Notes under the pieces: model-generated
What the model saw: only the letters and a program-made list of their open reading frames with translations
Databases searched by the model: none
Told to the model about the DNA's origin: nothing
Shown here: positions 1 to 6,123 of the stretch, in pieces
Layout of the letters: every line of letters starts with the position of its first letter
Numbering within the stretch: position 1 is the stretch's first letter
Source of the DNA: a bacterium
Lineage (GTDB): Bacteria; UBP6; JAFGXH01
Assembly: GCA_027064085.1 (NCBI GenBank)
Contig: JAMOQH010000169.1
Location: 1 to 6,123 of the forward strand
Length of the DNA stretch: 6,123 bases
Direction of reading: 5' to 3'
Made by a program: the position numbers and the translations under genes

Positions 1-121
1 CTGTTAGCTTATAGGTGTAAGCTAGTAAGTTTCTTATTGGCGTTTCACTATTTGTACTAAAGCTTTTTGTTTTTTAAAAACTAGGCTCACTTTAAGCAAG
101 GTGCTTACGATAGACACATAA
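1..121 (-). mobile_element. Start of a further gene cassette (cassette D), truncated by the window edge; no gene seen
   Basis: This is the first ~120 bases of the next cassette, beginning with TTATGTGTC just inside the R' box of the attC at 116-183. No reading frame of useful length opens on either strand: the single minus-strand ATG, at the cassette edge, meets a stop after four codons. Two small hairpins are visible, TAGCTTA/TAAGCTA (5-11 with 18-24, 6-base loop) and TAAGCA/TGCTTA (93-98 with 102-107, 3-base loop), plus an AT-only-core hairpin at 69-81. If this is a cassette, its own attC should contain GACACATAAC on the minus strand; that lies beyond the left edge. The piece could be a long untranslated leader or a gene-less cassette; the sequence does not decide. 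Confidence 0.45.
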
Positions 122-183
122 CGGTTGAAGATAGCCGATAAATTTCCGCTAGGGAATTTATTGGATACTCTGTTTTGTTAGCA
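116..183 (-). other. Integron attC recombination site 1 (end of cassette C)
   Basis: Read on the minus strand, the R'' box TGCTAAC (183-177) is followed by AAAAC and an L'' arm, and the site ends with the R' box GTTATGT (122-116). The arms pair: plus-strand GATAAATTTCC near 137-147 faces GGGAATTTATTGG near 152-164 with small mismatches around a GCTA loop. The minus-strand left arm carries one unpaired G relative to the right arm (AGAGTATCC against AGATAGCC), the kind of extrahelical base that sets attC polarity. At 68 bp it is the shortest site here and starts 3 bases after the stop codon of the 162-aa gene. It shares TAACGGTTGA with attC site 2. Confidence 0.75.
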
Positions 184-697
184 ATTTAGTCAAGTGATTT
201 AACTCTCTCCCATTCTCTTTTTAAAATTAATTGAGATTGAGTTAAAATTTCTGCTTCAATTTCACTTCGATTTTTATCTTTAGTTCTTATATTTTGATAT
301 GCTTCTTCAAGAATTTCAATTAATTTTTTATGGTCATCTTCATTTGGATTAATCAATAAAGAAATTTTAATTTTGTGTTTTTGTAATTCATCAAGTGCTT
401 TTGTTAAATCTTTTGAAGAATGAGGTTTTTCTGCCATATTATTTCCAATGATTGCCTGTGCATTATCAAACCACATACCTTCTAATTTAATGAAACCAAA
501 CAAATAATTAGTAATTTCATCTCTAAGGGTATTTATCCACTCTTGTCGACTTTTTGAATTAACAGAGGCTCGTAATTGTTTTTTAGTTACATAAATACTA
601 ATTAATGGGCTAATCACAACTGCTAACAATGCAGTTATCATTGGTACTATTTTTAAAATAAATTCAGTATCCATTTAATAATTCCTTTTTTTGCTAA
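122..697 (-). mobile_element. Integron gene cassette C (small membrane protein)
   Basis: Cassette bounded by the G^TT crossover points of attC site 2 (697/698) and attC site 1 (121/122), about 576 bp. It starts TTAGCAA and its attC carries TTGCTAAC as R'' box, an exact complement, as expected for one cassette unit. Typical single-gene layout: only 23 bases precede the ATG, with no promoter visible, so expression would depend on read-through from outside the cassette. Confidence 0.75.
186..674 (-). CDS. Cassette-borne hypothetical protein with one N-terminal membrane helix, 162 aa
   Basis: I cannot assign a function. Residues about 5-29 form one hydrophobic helix (FILKIVPMITALLAVVISPLISIYV region), followed by a basic KKQLR stretch. 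The remaining ~130 residues are then expected in the cytoplasm. They are charged and mostly helical, with three segments that look conserved in type: SRQEWINTLRDEI at 42-54, LLINPNEDDHK at 106-116 and a basic-aromatic LKREWERVK end at 151-159. Proteins with this plan (short anchor, then N/S-RQ-W-I-x-x-LRDEI) are, from memory, frequent among uncharacterised cassette and genomic-island genes. The ATG is chosen because AAGGA lies 8-9 bases upstream in the 23-base leader. The stop is 3 bases before attC site 1. A role in defence or membrane sensing is conceivable but not shown. Confidence 0.85.
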   Translation of the reverse strand: MDTEFILKIVPMITALLAVVISPLISIYVTKKQLRASVNSKSRQEWINTLRDEITNYLFGFIKLEGMWFDNAQAIIGNNMAEKPHSSKDLTKALDELQKHKIKISLLINPNEDDHKKLIEILEEAYQNIRTKDKNRSEIEAEILTQSQLILKREWERVKSLD

Positions 698-826
698 CGG
701 TTGAGTACAAAAATATGTTACCTGCTTTTAAGTTTTGAAATGCTTAAATTGCTTTAAAGTTTCTAAACAAATCTAAGCTTTTTTCGGCGATGGGTAACAT
801 ATTTTTGTTGCTACGATTTGTTATAT
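692..826 (-). other. Integron attC recombination site 2 (end of cassette B)
   Basis: Minus strand: R'' box ATATAAC (826-820) followed by AA, then the stem, and R' box GTTAGCA (698-692). The core stem is a perfect 16-bp inverted repeat, 707-722 against 793-808, around a ~70-base AT-rich loop. Beyond the perfect stem the minus-strand left arm is three bases longer than the right arm, giving unpaired bases that set the orientation on the minus strand. Total 135 bp, similar in length to site 3. The R'' box and the following CGTAG resemble those of site 4. Confidence 0.85.
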
Positions 827-837
827 CTTTTTGAAAG

Positions 838-866
838 CACCGACAAGATAAAAAGTCAAGTCGGTG
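838..866 (-). terminator. Possible hairpin after the outer-membrane protein gene
   Basis: A perfect 7-bp GC-rich inverted repeat, CACCGAC (838-844) with GTCGGTG (860-866), encloses a 15-base loop between the stop codon of the barrel gene and attC site 2. Its position suits an mRNA 3' end structure. It lacks a clear U-tract on the minus strand (the stem is followed by CTTTCAAAAAG), so it may protect the transcript rather than terminate it. Confidence 0.35.
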
Positions 867-903
867 TAGAGAATATATGAAAAACGAGGAGAAAAAGACC
901 AGC

Positions 904-1452
904 TTAGAAACGGAACTTAATGTTACCACCAATGTTTGTAAACTTAACATCGCCAAGTTCTCCACCCTCGTCAGCAGTTAAATCATAATCAGTAACAGTG
1001 TATTCAACACCAAGACTTAAATGTTCCCATATTTTATAGTCAATACCTGCACCATAACGAACACCACCACCTGTTACTGTATCGCTAGAACCATCATAGA
1101 AAGAATAATCCATAGAAGTACCATAGTAACCAACAATACCGAATACATCTAAGTCATCAATGAAAGTATATCCAAGATGAAGCTCACCGCCATAAGTTGA
1201 CATATCGTTTGTTGTACCACTTGCAAACTCGAAGCTTTGATAACCATAGTTCACTGCACCACCAAATAGGAAGTTACCTGTTGACTCAAAATGACCGTGA
1301 CCTCCGAAACCTACTTCATAACCTGTCGTGCTTGGACTTGTACTTGTATCTGCTTCTGTGCTATATACACCACCTTTGATAAAAGCATCTCCTGCCATAA
1401 CTCCACTTGCTAATGCCATTGCTACTAATGTAGTACCTAAAAATTTTTTCAT
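904..1452 (-). CDS. Small outer-membrane beta-barrel protein, 182 aa
   Basis: A secreted protein expected in the outer membrane. Residues 1-20 are a classic signal peptide (MKK, hydrophobic core, then VMA with cleavage before G21). The mature part alternates aromatic and small polar residues in amphipathic stretches (GYEVGFGGHGHF, FLFGGAVNYGY, GGELHLGYTF, FGIVGYYGTS, VRYGAGIDY, LSLGVEYTV), enough for an 8-strand barrel. It ends with IKFRF, whose last phenylalanine fits the barrel-assembly signal. Loops are rich in D, T, S and G. The ATG has AAAGG about 7 bases upstream. It sits alone in its cassette, and no partner gene is visible. Base composition is richer in G+C than in the restriction cassette beside it, suggesting a separate origin. 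Whether it is a porin, adhesin or phage-receptor variant cannot be told; the family resembles short uncharacterised barrels of Campylobacterota. Confidence 0.9.
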   Translation of the reverse strand: MKKFLGTTLVAMALASGVMAGDAFIKGGVYSTEADTSTSPSTTGYEVGFGGHGHFESTGNFLFGGAVNYGYQSFEFASGTTNDMSTYGGELHLGYTFIDDLDVFGIVGYYGTSMDYSFYDGSSDTVTGGGVRYGAGIDYKIWEHLSLGVEYTVTDYDLTADEGGELGDVKFTNIGGNIKFRF

Positions 1453-1534
1453 TGAAAACCTTTAAAATTTAAATTTACCTATTTAAGAAATAGGCATATT
1501 CAAATTTCCAGATAATGTGGCAACTTGGATATAA
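1453..1534 (-). promoter_or_regulatory. Leader of the outer-membrane protein gene with a small hairpin
   Basis: This 82-base leader holds a perfect 7-bp inverted repeat, CCTATTT/AAATAGG (1478-1484 with 1488-1494, 3-base loop), and the palindromic AAATTTAAATTT just before the ribosome site AAAGG. On the minus strand TTGCCA and AATATG are spaced 17 bases apart, only a weak promoter match. The leader is long enough to carry its own promoter, unlike cassette C. Confidence 0.3.
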
Positions 1535-1662
1535 CGACCGACTTGAACTACAAGTGTACCATTGAGGCAGAAGCAATTTGTTTATCTGGAATATAAATAT
1601 TTTCATAATTATTTGAATTACTAGCGATAGGTACACTTGTTAGTTCCAAGGATTTGTTAGGA
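1529..1662 (-). other. Integron attC recombination site 3 (end of cassette A), overlapping the methyltransferase gene
   Basis: Minus strand: R'' box TCCTAAC (1662-1656), then AAATC, and R' box GTTATAT (1535-1529). Plus-strand CTTGAACTACAAGTGTACC (1542-1560) pairs with GGTACACTTGTTAGTTCCAAG (1630-1650). The minus-strand left arm has two additional bases (one in CTTGG, one in CTAAC) that would be extrahelical, a textbook attC feature, and they orient the site on the minus strand. The loop of about 69 bases is coding. The methyltransferase stop codon (1548-1550) lies within the right arm, so the reading frame covers most of the site. Confidence 0.9.
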
Positions 1663-2648
1663 TAAATACTGCTTAAATCTTCAATTATTCTTTTTGCTAA
1701 ATAATATGCAAGATTTGGTGGTACCGCATTTCCTACCATTTTATAACCAGCACTTAAATTATTATAATAAAATTTATGACTATCTGGAAATGTTTGTATT
1801 CTTGCACATTCTCTAATACTTAATCTTCTATATAAATGTTCACTACCTTTTACAAATATTCTTTTATCTTTTTCCACAAACTCCATTTTTGGAGCTTGTG
1901 GATGTAGTGGTGCATGTCTTCCACCTGCTTGAATTGTAAATGATGGTTCATCCCAATTTCTTACTCTATTTCTTGACATAAACATTGATGAAAATCCACC
2001 TGTCATATATTCATGATTAGGGATATTACAATTATTACCATTCGTATAATTTTTATCTTTAGCTGATAAAACATTATCTTTTAAATCCCAAATTACATCT
2101 TTTAAAAATCTCTTTTTTGAAAAGCTTTTTGGGAATTTAAAATTCATATTTAAATCTTTTCTGTATCCAATAAAAAATATTCGTTTTCTATCTTGTGGCA
2201 CTTTATAATCATGAGCATTTAAAAGTTTGAAAGATAAATTGTATCCACTATCAATAAAATGATTTTTAATATTTTCAAGTGCTTCGCTATGTCTATTAGC
2301 TAACATACCAGAAACATTTTCAGCTAAAAAAAATAAAGGTTTTTTATCTTTTAAAACTCTAATAAACTCAAAAAACAACTGCCCCCTATGGTCTTGTATA
2401 CCCCTTGATTTACCTGCTTCACTCCAACTTTGACATGGCGGGCCACCAATTAGCCCTAAAGTTTCTGGGATTTCATCTGATGGAATTTTCGAAATACTTC
2501 TTCTGTCTAAAATTGTATTTGGAAAATTCTTTTCAAATGTTTCCCAAATTTCTTTATCATATTCATTTGCCCAAATAGTTTTAAAACCAGCTTTTTCAAA
2601 ACCTAGGTCTAATCCACCTGCACCTGAAAATAAAGATATTATATTCAT
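1548..2648 (-). CDS. Type II DNA (cytosine-5) methyltransferase, HaeIII/NgoPII-like (predicted GGCC), 366 aa
   Basis: Transfers a methyl group from S-adenosylmethionine to carbon 5 of cytosine, protecting host DNA from the endonuclease encoded just upstream. The C5 motifs appear in order: SAM-binding [15 protein letters not shown] (7-21), catalytic GGPPCQS with Cys72, ENV (110-112), QDRKR (152-156), a target-recognition region about 190-270 with [17 protein letters not shown] (279-288) and GNAVPPN (306-312). The body strongly resembles M.HaeIII and M.NgoPII as I recall them, both GGCC enzymes. Those have the segment SGRQCQLHPQAP where this protein has [12 protein letters not shown], so specificity is inferred. 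The start fits the family N-terminus (MNIISLFSG), with AAGG about 11 bases upstream inside the preceding gene. About 38 residues from 329 onward are encoded by attC site 3 and exceed the usual family length of 330-340. Confidence 0.95.
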
Positions 2649-2652
2649 AAAA

Positions 2653-3498
2653 TTAAACCTTAAAAGTTAATAGTTTTGCATCTATTAATTGAACTGGATT
2701 ATTTGGATTTTTAATTATTATATCTTGAACTTCTATATTGTTATTATTTATATTTTCAATAGCTTTTTTATCTTCAGTAGGTAGAGATTCATATTTTTCT
2801 TTTTTCATTAAACATGCTAACTGAAAAATTTTTGTATCATCAAAGCTATAAATATAATTAAAAACTTTATTTGGATTATCAATATGCCACATACCTCTAA
2901 TTCTTAAATCTGTAATACCTAATGGATCAACTTTTTTAACTTTTCCTAACTCTTTTGTTTGAGTAAACTCTACATCTTCTATTGTAGTTATTCCATCCGA
3001 AATGGTATTTTTAATTCTTTCATAAGTTTCTTTATCTGCACAAAAACAATCCCCATAAACTAACCATAATGATTTTAAAATTGAATTATCTACATAACCA
3101 ATAGCATAAAGCATATCTTTTATAGTCCATTCTTCACATTCTCTACAAGCTTTAGTTATCATTGGACTATTAGCATAAAGTTTTGCTTTTGGATATGAAC
3201 TATTTAATGCTATTGCACTATTTTTTGATTCTAATTTTTTAATCTCTATTGCATCACTATTTCTTATCATTAAATCAGGTGGATTATTTTTATTTCCTTG
3301 ATAAGAATAAATTTTTGATAGTTTTTCTAATTTGACTTGTTCATTAGTTTCATTTGTAGTATTTGCAAAAATATCTTTAATATAAGTTTCTAATCCTTCA
3401 CCCATATTATTTGCTCTATTATTACCTTGTGTCACATTAGTTATATTAACTTGATAATGATTTACTATATTTATAAATGCTTTAATTATGTTTGACAT
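2653..3498 (-). CDS. Type II restriction endonuclease, NgoPII family (predicted GGCC), 281 aa
   Basis: Predicted to cleave unmodified double-stranded GGCC sites. The protein has a PD-(D/E)XK active site: PD at 74-75, then Glu85 and Lys87 in DAIEIKK. The N-terminal [17 protein letters not shown] segment (26-42), the NPPD element, and [13 protein letters not shown] (95-107) match my memory of R.NgoPII (about 278 aa), so length and start agree with that family. A cluster of cysteines (C118, C121, C151, C153) could be structural. The ATG has AAGGA about 8 bases upstream. The gene begins 11 bases after the NACHT gene and stops 4 bases before its cognate methyltransferase, so the two are probably translationally linked. 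The endonuclease precedes the methyltransferase and no controller (C) protein gene is present, which leaves open how the host is protected when the cassette first arrives. Confidence 0.9.
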
Positions 3499-3509
3499 AT
3501 TTTTATTCC

Positions 3510-5939
3510 TTAATGTTTAGATAACTCTCGTTTTAAGTTTTTGAAAGAGTTCTTTTTTACTGTTAAAATACTTTGAAATATATCTGGAAAATTTTTTTTA
3601 TATTTATTTATTAATTTTTTAATACTTTTATCAAGTTCATCATCTAATTCAATTCGACCTTTTTTATCAAAAAAAGATATTAACATCGTTAAAAGTACTT
3701 TATTCTCTAATTCCTTTATATTTTGGATTAATGGTACTATTTTTTTTAAACTACTATTGATAAACTTTTTATCCAATGAAGCTGAGTTTTTTAGTATGTA
3801 AATTGTAGAAAAATAAAGTTTATTTTCATTATCATCAATATTATTTATTAATTTTTTTGTTTCATTTCTTAAAAAAGTACTTGAATAGCATAAGTCAATC
3901 ATATTAAACATACTAATACTACTTAAAATATGTGGAACTTCCATATTTAGACTATCTTTAAAAATTTTATGAAAATTTTCTTTTAAATCAAGTGACATTA
4001 ACATAGCAGTTTCAATAATATTTTCTTTAAAATTACTATCAGTCATCCAAGCATATTGAACTAATCTTCCCAAGTAAAATTTATTTAAATTTTTATCAAA
4101 TTGATTGTCAAGCTTTTCAATACTTTTTTGTAATTTATTATATTCACTTTTTATAATTTTACCTTTTAGTCCAAAGTAAAAAAAGACTACTTCTTCCCAT
4201 TGTTCAATAAAACTATATAATGAAAATAATTCATCAAACTTATCTTCTTCTATTAACTCTTCTTTATTTTCTTTGAAATAATTTGCAATAAAAAAATCTA
4301 AAAATGATTTATGTGAAAAATAAACTTCACTATTCTCTATTTTTAAAATACTAACTCTTTTGATATTTTCTATAAAATTTTCTTTATTTGTTATTACTGA
4401 AGAATGTTTTTTAGTAAATATATCTACAAATTTTATAAATTCATTATAGCTAATTTTTACCTTATTTTTTAGAAAAAATATTTCATATGATAAATTTGCA
4501 AAAAATTCTTTTTTAATTTTTGGTTCAAATAATTTATCAATTTCTGTACTAATTTCAAACTCTCCAAACATAATTCCAATATATTTATTATAAAGCTCTG
4601 TTATTGAAGCAGGTATTTCGTTATGTTTTTCAACTACTTCAATTAATAATCTTAAAGCCAAAGGATAAAAAGGTATTTGTCCTTCTAATTCAGAAATACT
4701 TTTTTCTAAATTATTAACTAAAATACTTTGTTTCTCAGCTATTTTTTTTATAAAATCTATTGCCTGTTTTGTTTCATATGGCATAAGTTCATAATGCACA
4801 TATTCATCAAATTCTTCCAATATTGTAAAATTTGTTCTTGAAGAAAAAACAATTGTTATTTCTTTATTCTTTAGTATTACATAAGATTCTATTTTTTCTT
4901 TAATTAAAAGTCTACTATTTTTATCAATTTCATCTATTCCATCAATAATAATTGTTCTAATAGTGTTGTCTTTTGATGATGAATAAAATTCTTCTAATAT
5001 AATTTCAATATTTTCAATATTATCTTTTATATCAATCGCCCTCAAGCTTACAGGAAAAGAAAAATCACTTTCCTCTCTAATTGAATTTATATTATTTTGT
5101 TTTAAAAATTTATTTATAAATTCTAAAATTATCTTAAATAATAATACAGACTTTCCAGAACCTGCTTCACCAGTTAAAATTATTTTTTGATATTTTTTTT
5201 CAGTAATTAACTCTAAAAATGATTGAAAATTCTCTCTATGACCAAATAGTTGTTCACTTATTAGTTTTAAATCATTTTTTGAATTTTGCTGAACGAGTAA
5301 CTCCTTTTTTGTTTTATTAAATCTTTTTATGTAAGGTTCTATAAAATATTTTAATTTTTTATCTTCAACTAAAAACTTTTCTATTTTTTCAACTCTATTT
5401 TTGAAAAATAGTTGTAAATCTTCATTAAAATAAAATTCTGGATAATGTTCTTCAAATAATTTTATTAAATCTTCAATAGCAAAATAATCCACATTATTCT
5501 TATAATTAACAAGTAATGGATCAAGTATTTTTCTTTTAGCCCCATCAGATATTGTTCCAGTATTTACTATATATACTTTTGATATAGTAACTTCTTCATG
5601 AATGTCTTGTAATTGAGCTTTTGTCATAAAAGCTTGTTGAACTTGAGTTGATATTTCAGCAGTTTTACTAACTGCAGAACCAGATAATTTTTCAACTGCT
5701 TTTACAACGAAAGCTATATGTTCATAATTACCAAAATTATCTTTCGTTCTAACAACAATATCTTTTCCTTTTTCTTCTGCACCCTGTAATATTTCAATAT
5801 AAGAATTAGGATATATTATTTCTAATAGTTTTTTTAACTCATAATGAAATTTATTCTCTTTACCAATGTAAGACTTTATTATATCTCTTTTTGTACTATA
5901 AAGTAAATCTTTAGCTTTTAATTGAAAATCTTTTAACAT
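3510..5939 (-). CDS. NACHT-type STAND NTPase with N-terminal PD-(D/E)XK-like domain, probable anti-phage protein, 809 aa
   Basis: A large signal-transducing ATPase expected in the cytoplasm. Residues about 30-105 look like a restriction-endonuclease fold: helix with Glu34, GKDIVV with Asp60, then AFVVKA with Lys80 and a following helix with STQVQQAF (98-104). The acidic or Gln residue usual two positions before the lysine is Val78, so the active site is atypical or dead. The NACHT core follows: Walker A GEAGSGKS (257-264), Walker B IIIDGIDEID (330-339) with the doubled acidic residues of NACHT proteins, a sensor arginine in FSSRTN (Arg368), and the downstream SHKSFLDFFIANYF signature (542-555). 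Residues 560-809 are helical, lysine-rich and without obvious repeats; such C-terminal regions usually sense the trigger. Bacterial NACHT proteins are known anti-phage systems. SD AGGA lies 7 bases before the ATG. Confidence 0.9.
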   Translation of the reverse strand: MLKDFQLKAKDLLYSTKRDIIKSYIGKENKFHYELKKLLEIIYPNSYIEILQGAEEKGKDIVVRTKDNFGNYEHIAFVVKAVEKLSGSAVSKTAEISTQVQQAFMTKAQLQDIHEEVTISKVYIVNTGTISDGAKRKILDPLLVNYKNNVDYFAIEDLIKLFEEHYPEFYFNEDLQLFFKNRVEKIEKFLVEDKKLKYFIEPYIKRFNKTKKELLVQQNSKNDLKLISEQLFGHRENFQSFLELITEKKYQKIILTGEAGSGKSVLLFKIILEFINKFLKQNNINSIREESDFSFPVSLRAIDIKDNIENIEIILEEFYSSSKDNTIRTIIIDGIDEIDKNSRLLIKEKIESYVILKNKEITIVFSSRTNFTILEEFDEYVHYELMPYETKQAIDFIKKIAEKQSILVNNLEKSISELEGQIPFYPLALRLLIEVVEKHNEIPASITELYNKYIGIMFGEFEISTEIDKLFEPKIKKEFFANLSYEIFFLKNKVKISYNEFIKFVDIFTKKHSSVITNKENFIENIKRVSILKIENSEVYFSHKSFLDFFIANYFKENKEELIEEDKFDELFSLYSFIEQWEEVVFFYFGLKGKIIKSEYNKLQKSIEKLDNQFDKNLNKFYLGRLVQYAWMTDSNFKENIIETAMLMSLDLKENFHKIFKDSLNMEVPHILSSISMFNMIDLCYSSTFLRNETKKLINNIDDNENKLYFSTIYILKNSASLDKKFINSSLKKIVPLIQNIKELENKVLLTMLISFFDKKGRIELDDELDKSIKKLINKYKKNFPDIFQSILTVKKNSFKNLKRELSKH

Positions 5940-6019
5940 TTATTATTCCTAATTTTATTATATATTGTACTAAACAAATTTAATAAACTTACTTAAGTAA
6001 ATATAACTACTTATCCTAA
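5940..6019 (-). promoter_or_regulatory. Leader and possible promoter of the NACHT/restriction-modification operon
   Basis: This 80-base, very AT-rich stretch is the only upstream region inside cassette A. On the minus strand it has a perfect TATAAT (5962-5957) and an overlapping TACAAT just before it. No good -35 box stands 16-18 bases upstream, though some AT-rich bacteria use -10 boxes with weak -35 elements. With TATAAT the transcript would start near 5950, placing the AGGA ribosome site (5950-5947) almost at the 5' end; TACAAT would leave slightly more room. Upstream lies a perfect 12-bp palindrome, listed separately. Confidence 0.4.
5989..6000. promoter_or_regulatory. Perfect 12-bp palindrome, possible operator
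   Basis: TTACTTAAGTAA is identical on both strands and sits about 27 bases upstream of the candidate -10 box of the NACHT/restriction-modification operon, inside the cassette. The position suits a binding site for a dimeric regulator. AT-rich palindromes of this size can occur by chance, and no regulator is encoded in the window. Confidence 0.25.
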
Positions 6020-6109
6020 CTATTAGTTAATCAACATTTTAGCACCAACCACATTAATCCATCATAAATAATTCTAATGCTAAAATGTTGTTTCTACGCC
6101 TTGTTATAT
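6014..6109 (-). other. Integron attC recombination site 4 (end of the upstream cassette)
   Basis: Minus strand: R'' box ATATAAC (6109-6103), then AAGGCGTAG, and R' box GTTAGGA (6020-6014). The core stem is a perfect 13-bp repeat, CAACATTTTAGCA (6032-6044) with TGCTAAAATGTTG (6078-6090), around a 33-base loop. The minus-strand left arm is one base longer than the right. The R'' box implies that the unseen upstream cassette begins TTATAT. The 14 bases to its right (6110-6123) would be the tail of that cassette; nothing can be read in them. Confidence 0.85.
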
Positions 6110-6123
6110 GAACGAATGTAGGC

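Follow-up and report, generated by a model that had tools for sequence, protein, structure and literature searches.

Can a single integron cassette carry a complete layered antiviral unit, and, if it can, do the layers cooperate or merely travel together? This question is raised by a stretch of bacterial DNA of 6123 bp (referred to below as the window), which is the entire contig C169 of a draft genome in 195 contigs (G000). The minus strand of the window carries a run of integron cassettes, one of which contains three genes: a gene for a large NACHT protein, followed by a type II restriction-modification (R-M) pair composed of an NgoPII-type endonuclease and a C5 cytosine methyltransferase. 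Integron-borne defenses are reported as small, with two genes at most (reviewed in PMC12409362). The interpretation favored here, with a probability of about two in three, is that the region is a mobile integron cassette moving a three-gene layered defense unit, the two layers of which most likely act independently.

The NACHT cassette spans positions 1535-6019 on the minus strand (4485 bp). Its limits are the crossovers in two successive R' boxes, GTTAGGATA at its start and GTTATATCC at its end. The first of these (6020-6012) is a perfect 9-nt complement of the cassette's own R'' box, TATCCTAAC (1664-1656), and the next R' box stands at 1535. Two attC sites, both on the minus strand, frame the unit: attC A (6010-6112) belongs to the preceding cassette and supplies the R' box with which the NACHT cassette starts, while attC B (1525-1666) is that of the NACHT cassette itself, contains TATCCTAAC, and forms a long, near-perfect stem. 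As single-stranded DNA, both fold far better than shuffled sequences (z -3.4 and -3.1, respectively), as does a third site further along the run, attC C (690-829, minus strand, z -3.3). An attC model that scores sequence only, with no base pairs, returns E values of 1.3e-8 for attC A and 4.1e-15 for attC B, both of which are themselves among its training sequences. There are two hairpin-supported links in the window, and at least two were found in 4 of 300 dinucleotide shuffles. Taken alone, this link count is only moderately improbable.

Stronger evidence, independent of the link count, comes from comparison with another genome. The trio of NACHT, endonuclease, and methyltransferase genes is found in the same order and on the same strand in two other metagenome-assembled genomes (MAGs). 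In one of them, a Nautiliales MAG (L011, JAUUDM010000044.1), both flanks of the trio differ from those in the window, and homology to the window ends at G^TTAGGATAA on one side and at G^TTAT on the other, which is the position of strand exchange by integron integrases. These breaks show that the unit has moved as a cassette. Judged by its attC hairpin, its R''/R' complementarity, and its G^TT breakpoints, the region 1535-6019 is an authentic integron cassette. In the other, a Helicobacteraceae MAG (L010, JALWGC010000003.1), the trio sits in a cluster of hydrogenase maturation genes, shares their orientation, and retains only part of the attC; a true integron integrase (421 bits) is encoded elsewhere in that genome. 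None of the three reading frames is broken in any of the three genomes. The initial annotation of the window had described a tightly spaced three-gene cassette joining a NACHT protein to a GGCC R-M system, and the gene calls, domain matches, and intergenic gaps agree with this description. The ends that it proposed coincide with the matched GTTAGGATA/TATCCTAAC boxes and the L011 breakpoints, and its view of the trio as one excisable unit is borne out by the attC ends and the G^TT breaks in L011. It had also asked whether the three genes travel together outside integrons, and whether any other genome keeps them together at all. The trio is carried by three genomes, with an integron-like setting in L011 and a non-integron setting in L010, so the refutation that the initial annotation had named fails.

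The association between the NACHT gene and the R-M pair is not a fixed one. Between the window and L010/L011, protein identity amounts to 87% for the NACHT protein, about 70% for the endonuclease, and 78-79% for the methyltransferase. The R-M pair of the window is closest to a bare pair in locus L095 (85/91% identity), with which its homology runs from the endonuclease ATG to just before the attC. In the R-M trees, the window groups with L095, and L010 and L011 group with L099, a locus in which nuo-like genes, and no NACHT gene, lie upstream of the R-M pair. Between the window and L011, nucleotide identity is about 87% up to the NACHT stop and drops to 68% with the endonuclease start. Given this drop at a gene boundary and the separate R-M tree groups, one NACHT gene was joined to two R-M lineages, or the R-M pair was replaced within the unit. 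By these comparisons, NACHT and R-M are linked in a modular, not an obligatory, way.

The R-M pair itself is of the NgoPII/HaeIII type. The endonuclease (281 amino acids, 2653-3498, minus strand) matches PF09521 over its full length (E 2.4e-125) and the PADLOC model REase_II (E 1.5e-112); among solved structures, none is close to it by sequence. The methyltransferase (366 amino acids, 1548-2648, minus strand; PCQ at 71, ENV at 110) matches PF00145 (E 1.8e-97), and its best match of solved structure is M.HaeIII (1dct, E 1.2e-134). GGCC is the likely target of the pair, since the methyltransferase most resembles M.HaeIII and the endonuclease match to PF09521 is complete. The genes are tightly spaced, with gaps of 11 bp between NACHT and endonuclease and 4 bp between endonuclease and methyltransferase. 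Correcting an earlier reading, attC B encodes the final ~37 codons of the methyltransferase gene, which end in the L' arm, and thereby provides its stop codon. The attC-encoded tail is also found in L011, and the bare relative L095 stops before the attC. Capture as a cassette thus lengthened the methyltransferase by about 35 residues.

The first gene of the cassette encodes a NACHT protein of 809 amino acids (3510-5939, minus strand), with an N-terminal restriction-endonuclease-like domain (residues 1-175, including D60 and K80), a NACHT ATPase, and a C-terminal helical region. The Pfam NACHT match lies barely above the cut-off (27.2 against 26.7 bits), and the Walker motifs are intact (Walker A GEAGSGKS at 257-264; Walker B DGIDEID). 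When residues 1-190 are modeled alone (predicted local distance difference test, pLDDT, 74), the region from about residue 6 to 175 resembles the restriction endonucleases AspBHI (Z 9.9, root-mean-square deviation 3.7, 138 residues aligned), FokI (Z 9.1), and MspJI (Z 8.9), as well as Avs4 (Z 7.8). These are moderate Z values, and the model indicates that the domain most likely has a PD-(D/E)XK-type endonuclease fold, from which a nuclease activity may be inferred. Among distant NACHT relatives, D60 is invariant and K80 nearly so, the latter varying with the alignment.

A functional reference point is offered by the proteins L053 (E. coli prophage) and L019 (Enterobacter plasmid), of 752 and 753 amino acids, respectively. 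They share 81.6% identity, both have Asp at position 48, and L019 adjoins WP_057688291, while bNACHT32 is WP_057688292. bNACHT25 and bNACHT32 share 81% identity, and both lose their defense activity on D48A substitution (PMC12169576). On account of the matching mutual identity, the shared D48, and the adjacent accession numbers, L053 and L019 are taken to be close relatives of bNACHT25/32. With these proteins, the window's NACHT protein shares about 24% identity, and its D60 aligns with their D48; by identity, this alignment, and domain layout, it is probably a distant member of the bNACHT25/32 type. The more distant relatives, with no neighboring R-M, occur on a Malaciobacter plasmid, in three Campylobacterota genomes, and in E. 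coli and Enterobacter. A recombinase beside the Malaciobacter gene was considered as IntI and rejected as XerD-like. In three Campylobacter-like genomes (L065-L067), NACHT relatives adjoin an apparently truncated comM gene and a protein with a TnsE_C domain. No NACHT relatives were found in phage records, and viral contigs contain only distant ones (23-24%).

The R-M pair has other partners elsewhere. PF09521 is matched in 22 of 397 Campylobacterota genomes, and the neighborhoods of most of these 22, together with a few more, were read. About a dozen NgoPII loci are bare pairs or degraded remnants, while seven contain other genes between endonuclease and methylase. The inserts include Mrr and nSTAND1 proteins (L094 and L097), a PtuA/OLD-like ATPase (L100), and a TIR protein with a PDC-M50A/B pair, SLATT-like and TIR-like (L103); in L112, another gene comes first, and what seems to be the same pair follows. 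A PDC-S26 nuclease is present in L109, where the endonuclease is broken. At L096, a protein of 613 amino acids (7562-9403) without a Pfam or PADLOC match occupies the same position and represents a candidate new defense gene. Bare L098 and insert-bearing L112 have the same chromosomal neighbors; here an R-M operon has clearly either received an insert or lost one. The bare pair of L101 is flanked by two ribE copies, an arrangement suggestive of an insertion that duplicated a long target. The NgoPII loci of L010 and L097 lie in or beside hydrogenase maturation genes, a region that insertions may favor. From their gene content, NgoPII-type operons appear to act as docking frames for varied defense genes. 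These inserts fit published accounts of defense genes embedded in other defense systems (Payne 2024 preprint, 10.1101/2024.01.29.577857, as cited in PMC12255303 and PMC12988326), and NgoPII operons may be a productive place for finding new ones.

The remaining cassettes of the window and of the same bin place the trio in a wider array. The cassette following the trio has the ends GTTATATC/GATATAAC (1535/820), which match perfectly over 8 nt, and encodes an outer-membrane beta-barrel protein of 182 amino acids (904-1452, minus strand; PF13505, E 7.6e-15). The third, with the ends GTTAGCAA/TTGCTAAC (698/177) and likewise a perfect match over 8 nt, encodes a protein of 162 amino acids with no family above the cut-off (186-674, minus strand). 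attC C, which closes the former, shares 71% identity with an attC of contig C2, which belongs to the same bin. The short attC D (113-186, minus strand) has a weaker hairpin (z -0.9), with R'' and R' present, and by eye closely matches positions 951-1019 of contig C46. An Rfam scan of the window gave no match. On these two further contigs of the genome, where relatives of the attC sites are present, defense genes are again found. Contig C2 (L121) contains a second large cassette (198-4332, 4.1 kb) with the ends GTTATCTG/CAGATAAC and attC sites of the same family as those of the window; it encodes an AriA/OLD-like ATPase (632 amino acids) and then a fusion of C5 methylase and HpaII endonuclease (731 amino acids). 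Contig C46 (L133, 1-3198) carries cassettes with a Phd/ParE pair, a 215-amino-acid protein, and a SIR2-domain protein, and, read by eye, the start of another C5 methylase at its edge. The contents of C2 and C46 indicate an array rich in defense genes.

The integron platform of this array has a gap on the side of the integrase. No TIGR02249 match above the cut-off was found in G000, a draft from which IntI may be missing, or in 27 other genomes of its small phylum, and an XerA-like recombinase on contig C159 was rejected as an integron integrase by the same cut-off. It is the array, and not the cassette, that falls short of a full integron platform in this respect. For the NACHT, R-M, and beta-barrel genes, the best-matching relatives come from Campylobacterota. 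Because C2, C46, and C169 hold cassettes only and the phylum has yielded no integron integrase, the array contigs may be foreign (horizontal gain) or misbinned; the base composition and tetranucleotides of C169 speak neither for nor against membership of the bin. The anatomy of the cassette is unaffected either way.

How would such a unit work? The three genes are probably co-transcribed. In the first layer, the methyltransferase would shield GGCC sites of the host, and the NgoPII-type endonuclease would cut incoming unmodified DNA. In the second, the C-terminal part of the NACHT protein would sense infection, the NACHT ATPase would then oligomerize, and DNA cutting by the N-terminal PD-(D/E)XK-type domain would halt the growth of the infected cell. 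The layers would most likely act independently and would stay linked because jointly they cover more phages and because the addictive R-M pair stabilizes the genes that travel with it. Independence is preferred because more distant NACHT relatives stand alone. Several points weigh against this picture. The full-length NACHT model, sensor part included, is poor (pLDDT 50). In the endonuclease-like domain, V-x-K takes the place of the E/Q-x-K of classical sites; the motif is common to bNACHT25-like proteins. An inactive nuclease, as suggested by V-x-K and NA-iREase models, was rejected, since V-x-K recurs in the bNACHT25/32-like proteins, and bNACHT25 and bNACHT32 require D48. No promoter above chance was detected before the NACHT gene, and distance from the integron promoter may leave cassettes of the array silent. 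Finally, the window, L010, and L011 share one NACHT lineage, so the three loci do not represent many independent associations.

Mere linkage would suffice if the R-M pair were a selfish, addictive stabilizer and the NACHT gene its accidental cargo. NgoPII pairs do stand alone in some loci and carry widely differing cargo in others, the position of the L101 pair between its ribE copies is as expected for a mobile R-M, and the histories of R-M and NACHT differ. An accident of this kind is nevertheless considered somewhat unlikely: the same NACHT is paired with two R-M lineages of one family, the inserts identified are mostly defense genes, and the gene spacing is consistent with a single operon. 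A cassette archived in silence, intact yet unexpressed in a long array and useful only once moved to first position, would explain the lack of an above-chance promoter before the NACHT gene and would agree with the weak transcription reported for distal cassettes (PMC12409362). It is unlikely in view of the three frames kept intact in three genomes and of the L010 unit, which lies outside an integron and is co-stranded with its hydrogenase-cluster neighbors.

The remaining alternative is a guard circuit, in which the NACHT protein kills the infected cell only upon sensing the failure or action of the R-M system, for instance through modified phage DNA, GGCC-cleaved ends, or an anti-restriction protein. 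In its favor, order and spacing are conserved in three loci, the NACHT gene was retained while the R-M pair gave way to a different lineage within its family, and the C2 cassette likewise pairs R-M with an AriA/OLD-like ATPase. PARIS, the system of AriA, is triggered by the anti-restriction protein Ocr. The solitary NACHT relatives in other genomes and the sensing of infection through DnaJ that is reported for bNACHT25 (PMC12169576) point the other way, and the many unrelated defense genes docked at the same R-M argue against a specific circuit. A guard role is thus quite improbable. So is its wider form, in which NgoPII-/HpaII-type operons would be docking frames for interchangeable NTPase-nuclease defenses that guard R-M, integrons would move such two-layer modules, and NACHT would be activated when restriction is blocked or evaded. 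The excisable, co-traveling unit of the initial annotation is retained, while its suggestion that NACHT responds to restriction failure or to cleaved or modified DNA loses ground, NgoPII pairs being found also alone or with other defense genes. The natural re-pairing of one NACHT with two R-M lineages provides a clean system for testing cooperation against co-travel of an NLR-like (nucleotide-binding leucine-rich repeat-like) protein and R-M.

Integron defense cassettes, defenses embedded in R-M systems, and bNACHT proteins are each already known. Like bNACHT25 and bNACHT32 (clade 6), the NACHT of the window is one large protein with an N-terminal PD-(D/E)XK-type domain, a central NACHT, a helical C-terminus, and a D60 equivalent to D48. 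However, the characterized members act alone, whereas the window gene heads an R-M operon and is about 24% identical to them. As in NgoPII/HaeIII type II systems, a full-length PF09521 endonuclease adjoins an M.HaeIII-like C5 methyltransferase; the window differs in the attC-encoded C-terminal tail of its methyltransferase and in the NACHT gene that precedes the pair. As in embedded defenses already described (Payne 2024 preprint; DarTG2 in type I R-M, PMC12255303), a defense gene lies within the operon of another system: it is co-oriented with an R-M operon that is also found bare. Here, in contrast, the frame is a small type II pair, the NACHT gene is upstream rather than between the genes, and the unit as a whole forms an integron cassette. 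Darracq 2025 and Kieffer 2025, as summarized in PMC12409362, describe anti-phage genes that move as attC cassettes. The cassette of the window, with three genes and two putative layers in 4.5 kb, differs from these surveys as reviewed there, and the supplements of the primary surveys could list a similar one. Within these bounds, the window shows that a complete immune unit of several genes and two putative layers can be carried by an integron, contrary to the reported rule of small defenses with no more than two genes. Because the trio recurs in two other bacteria and different defense genes occupy the operons of related R-M pairs, the comparison suggests that bacteria trade ready-made layered antiviral kits.

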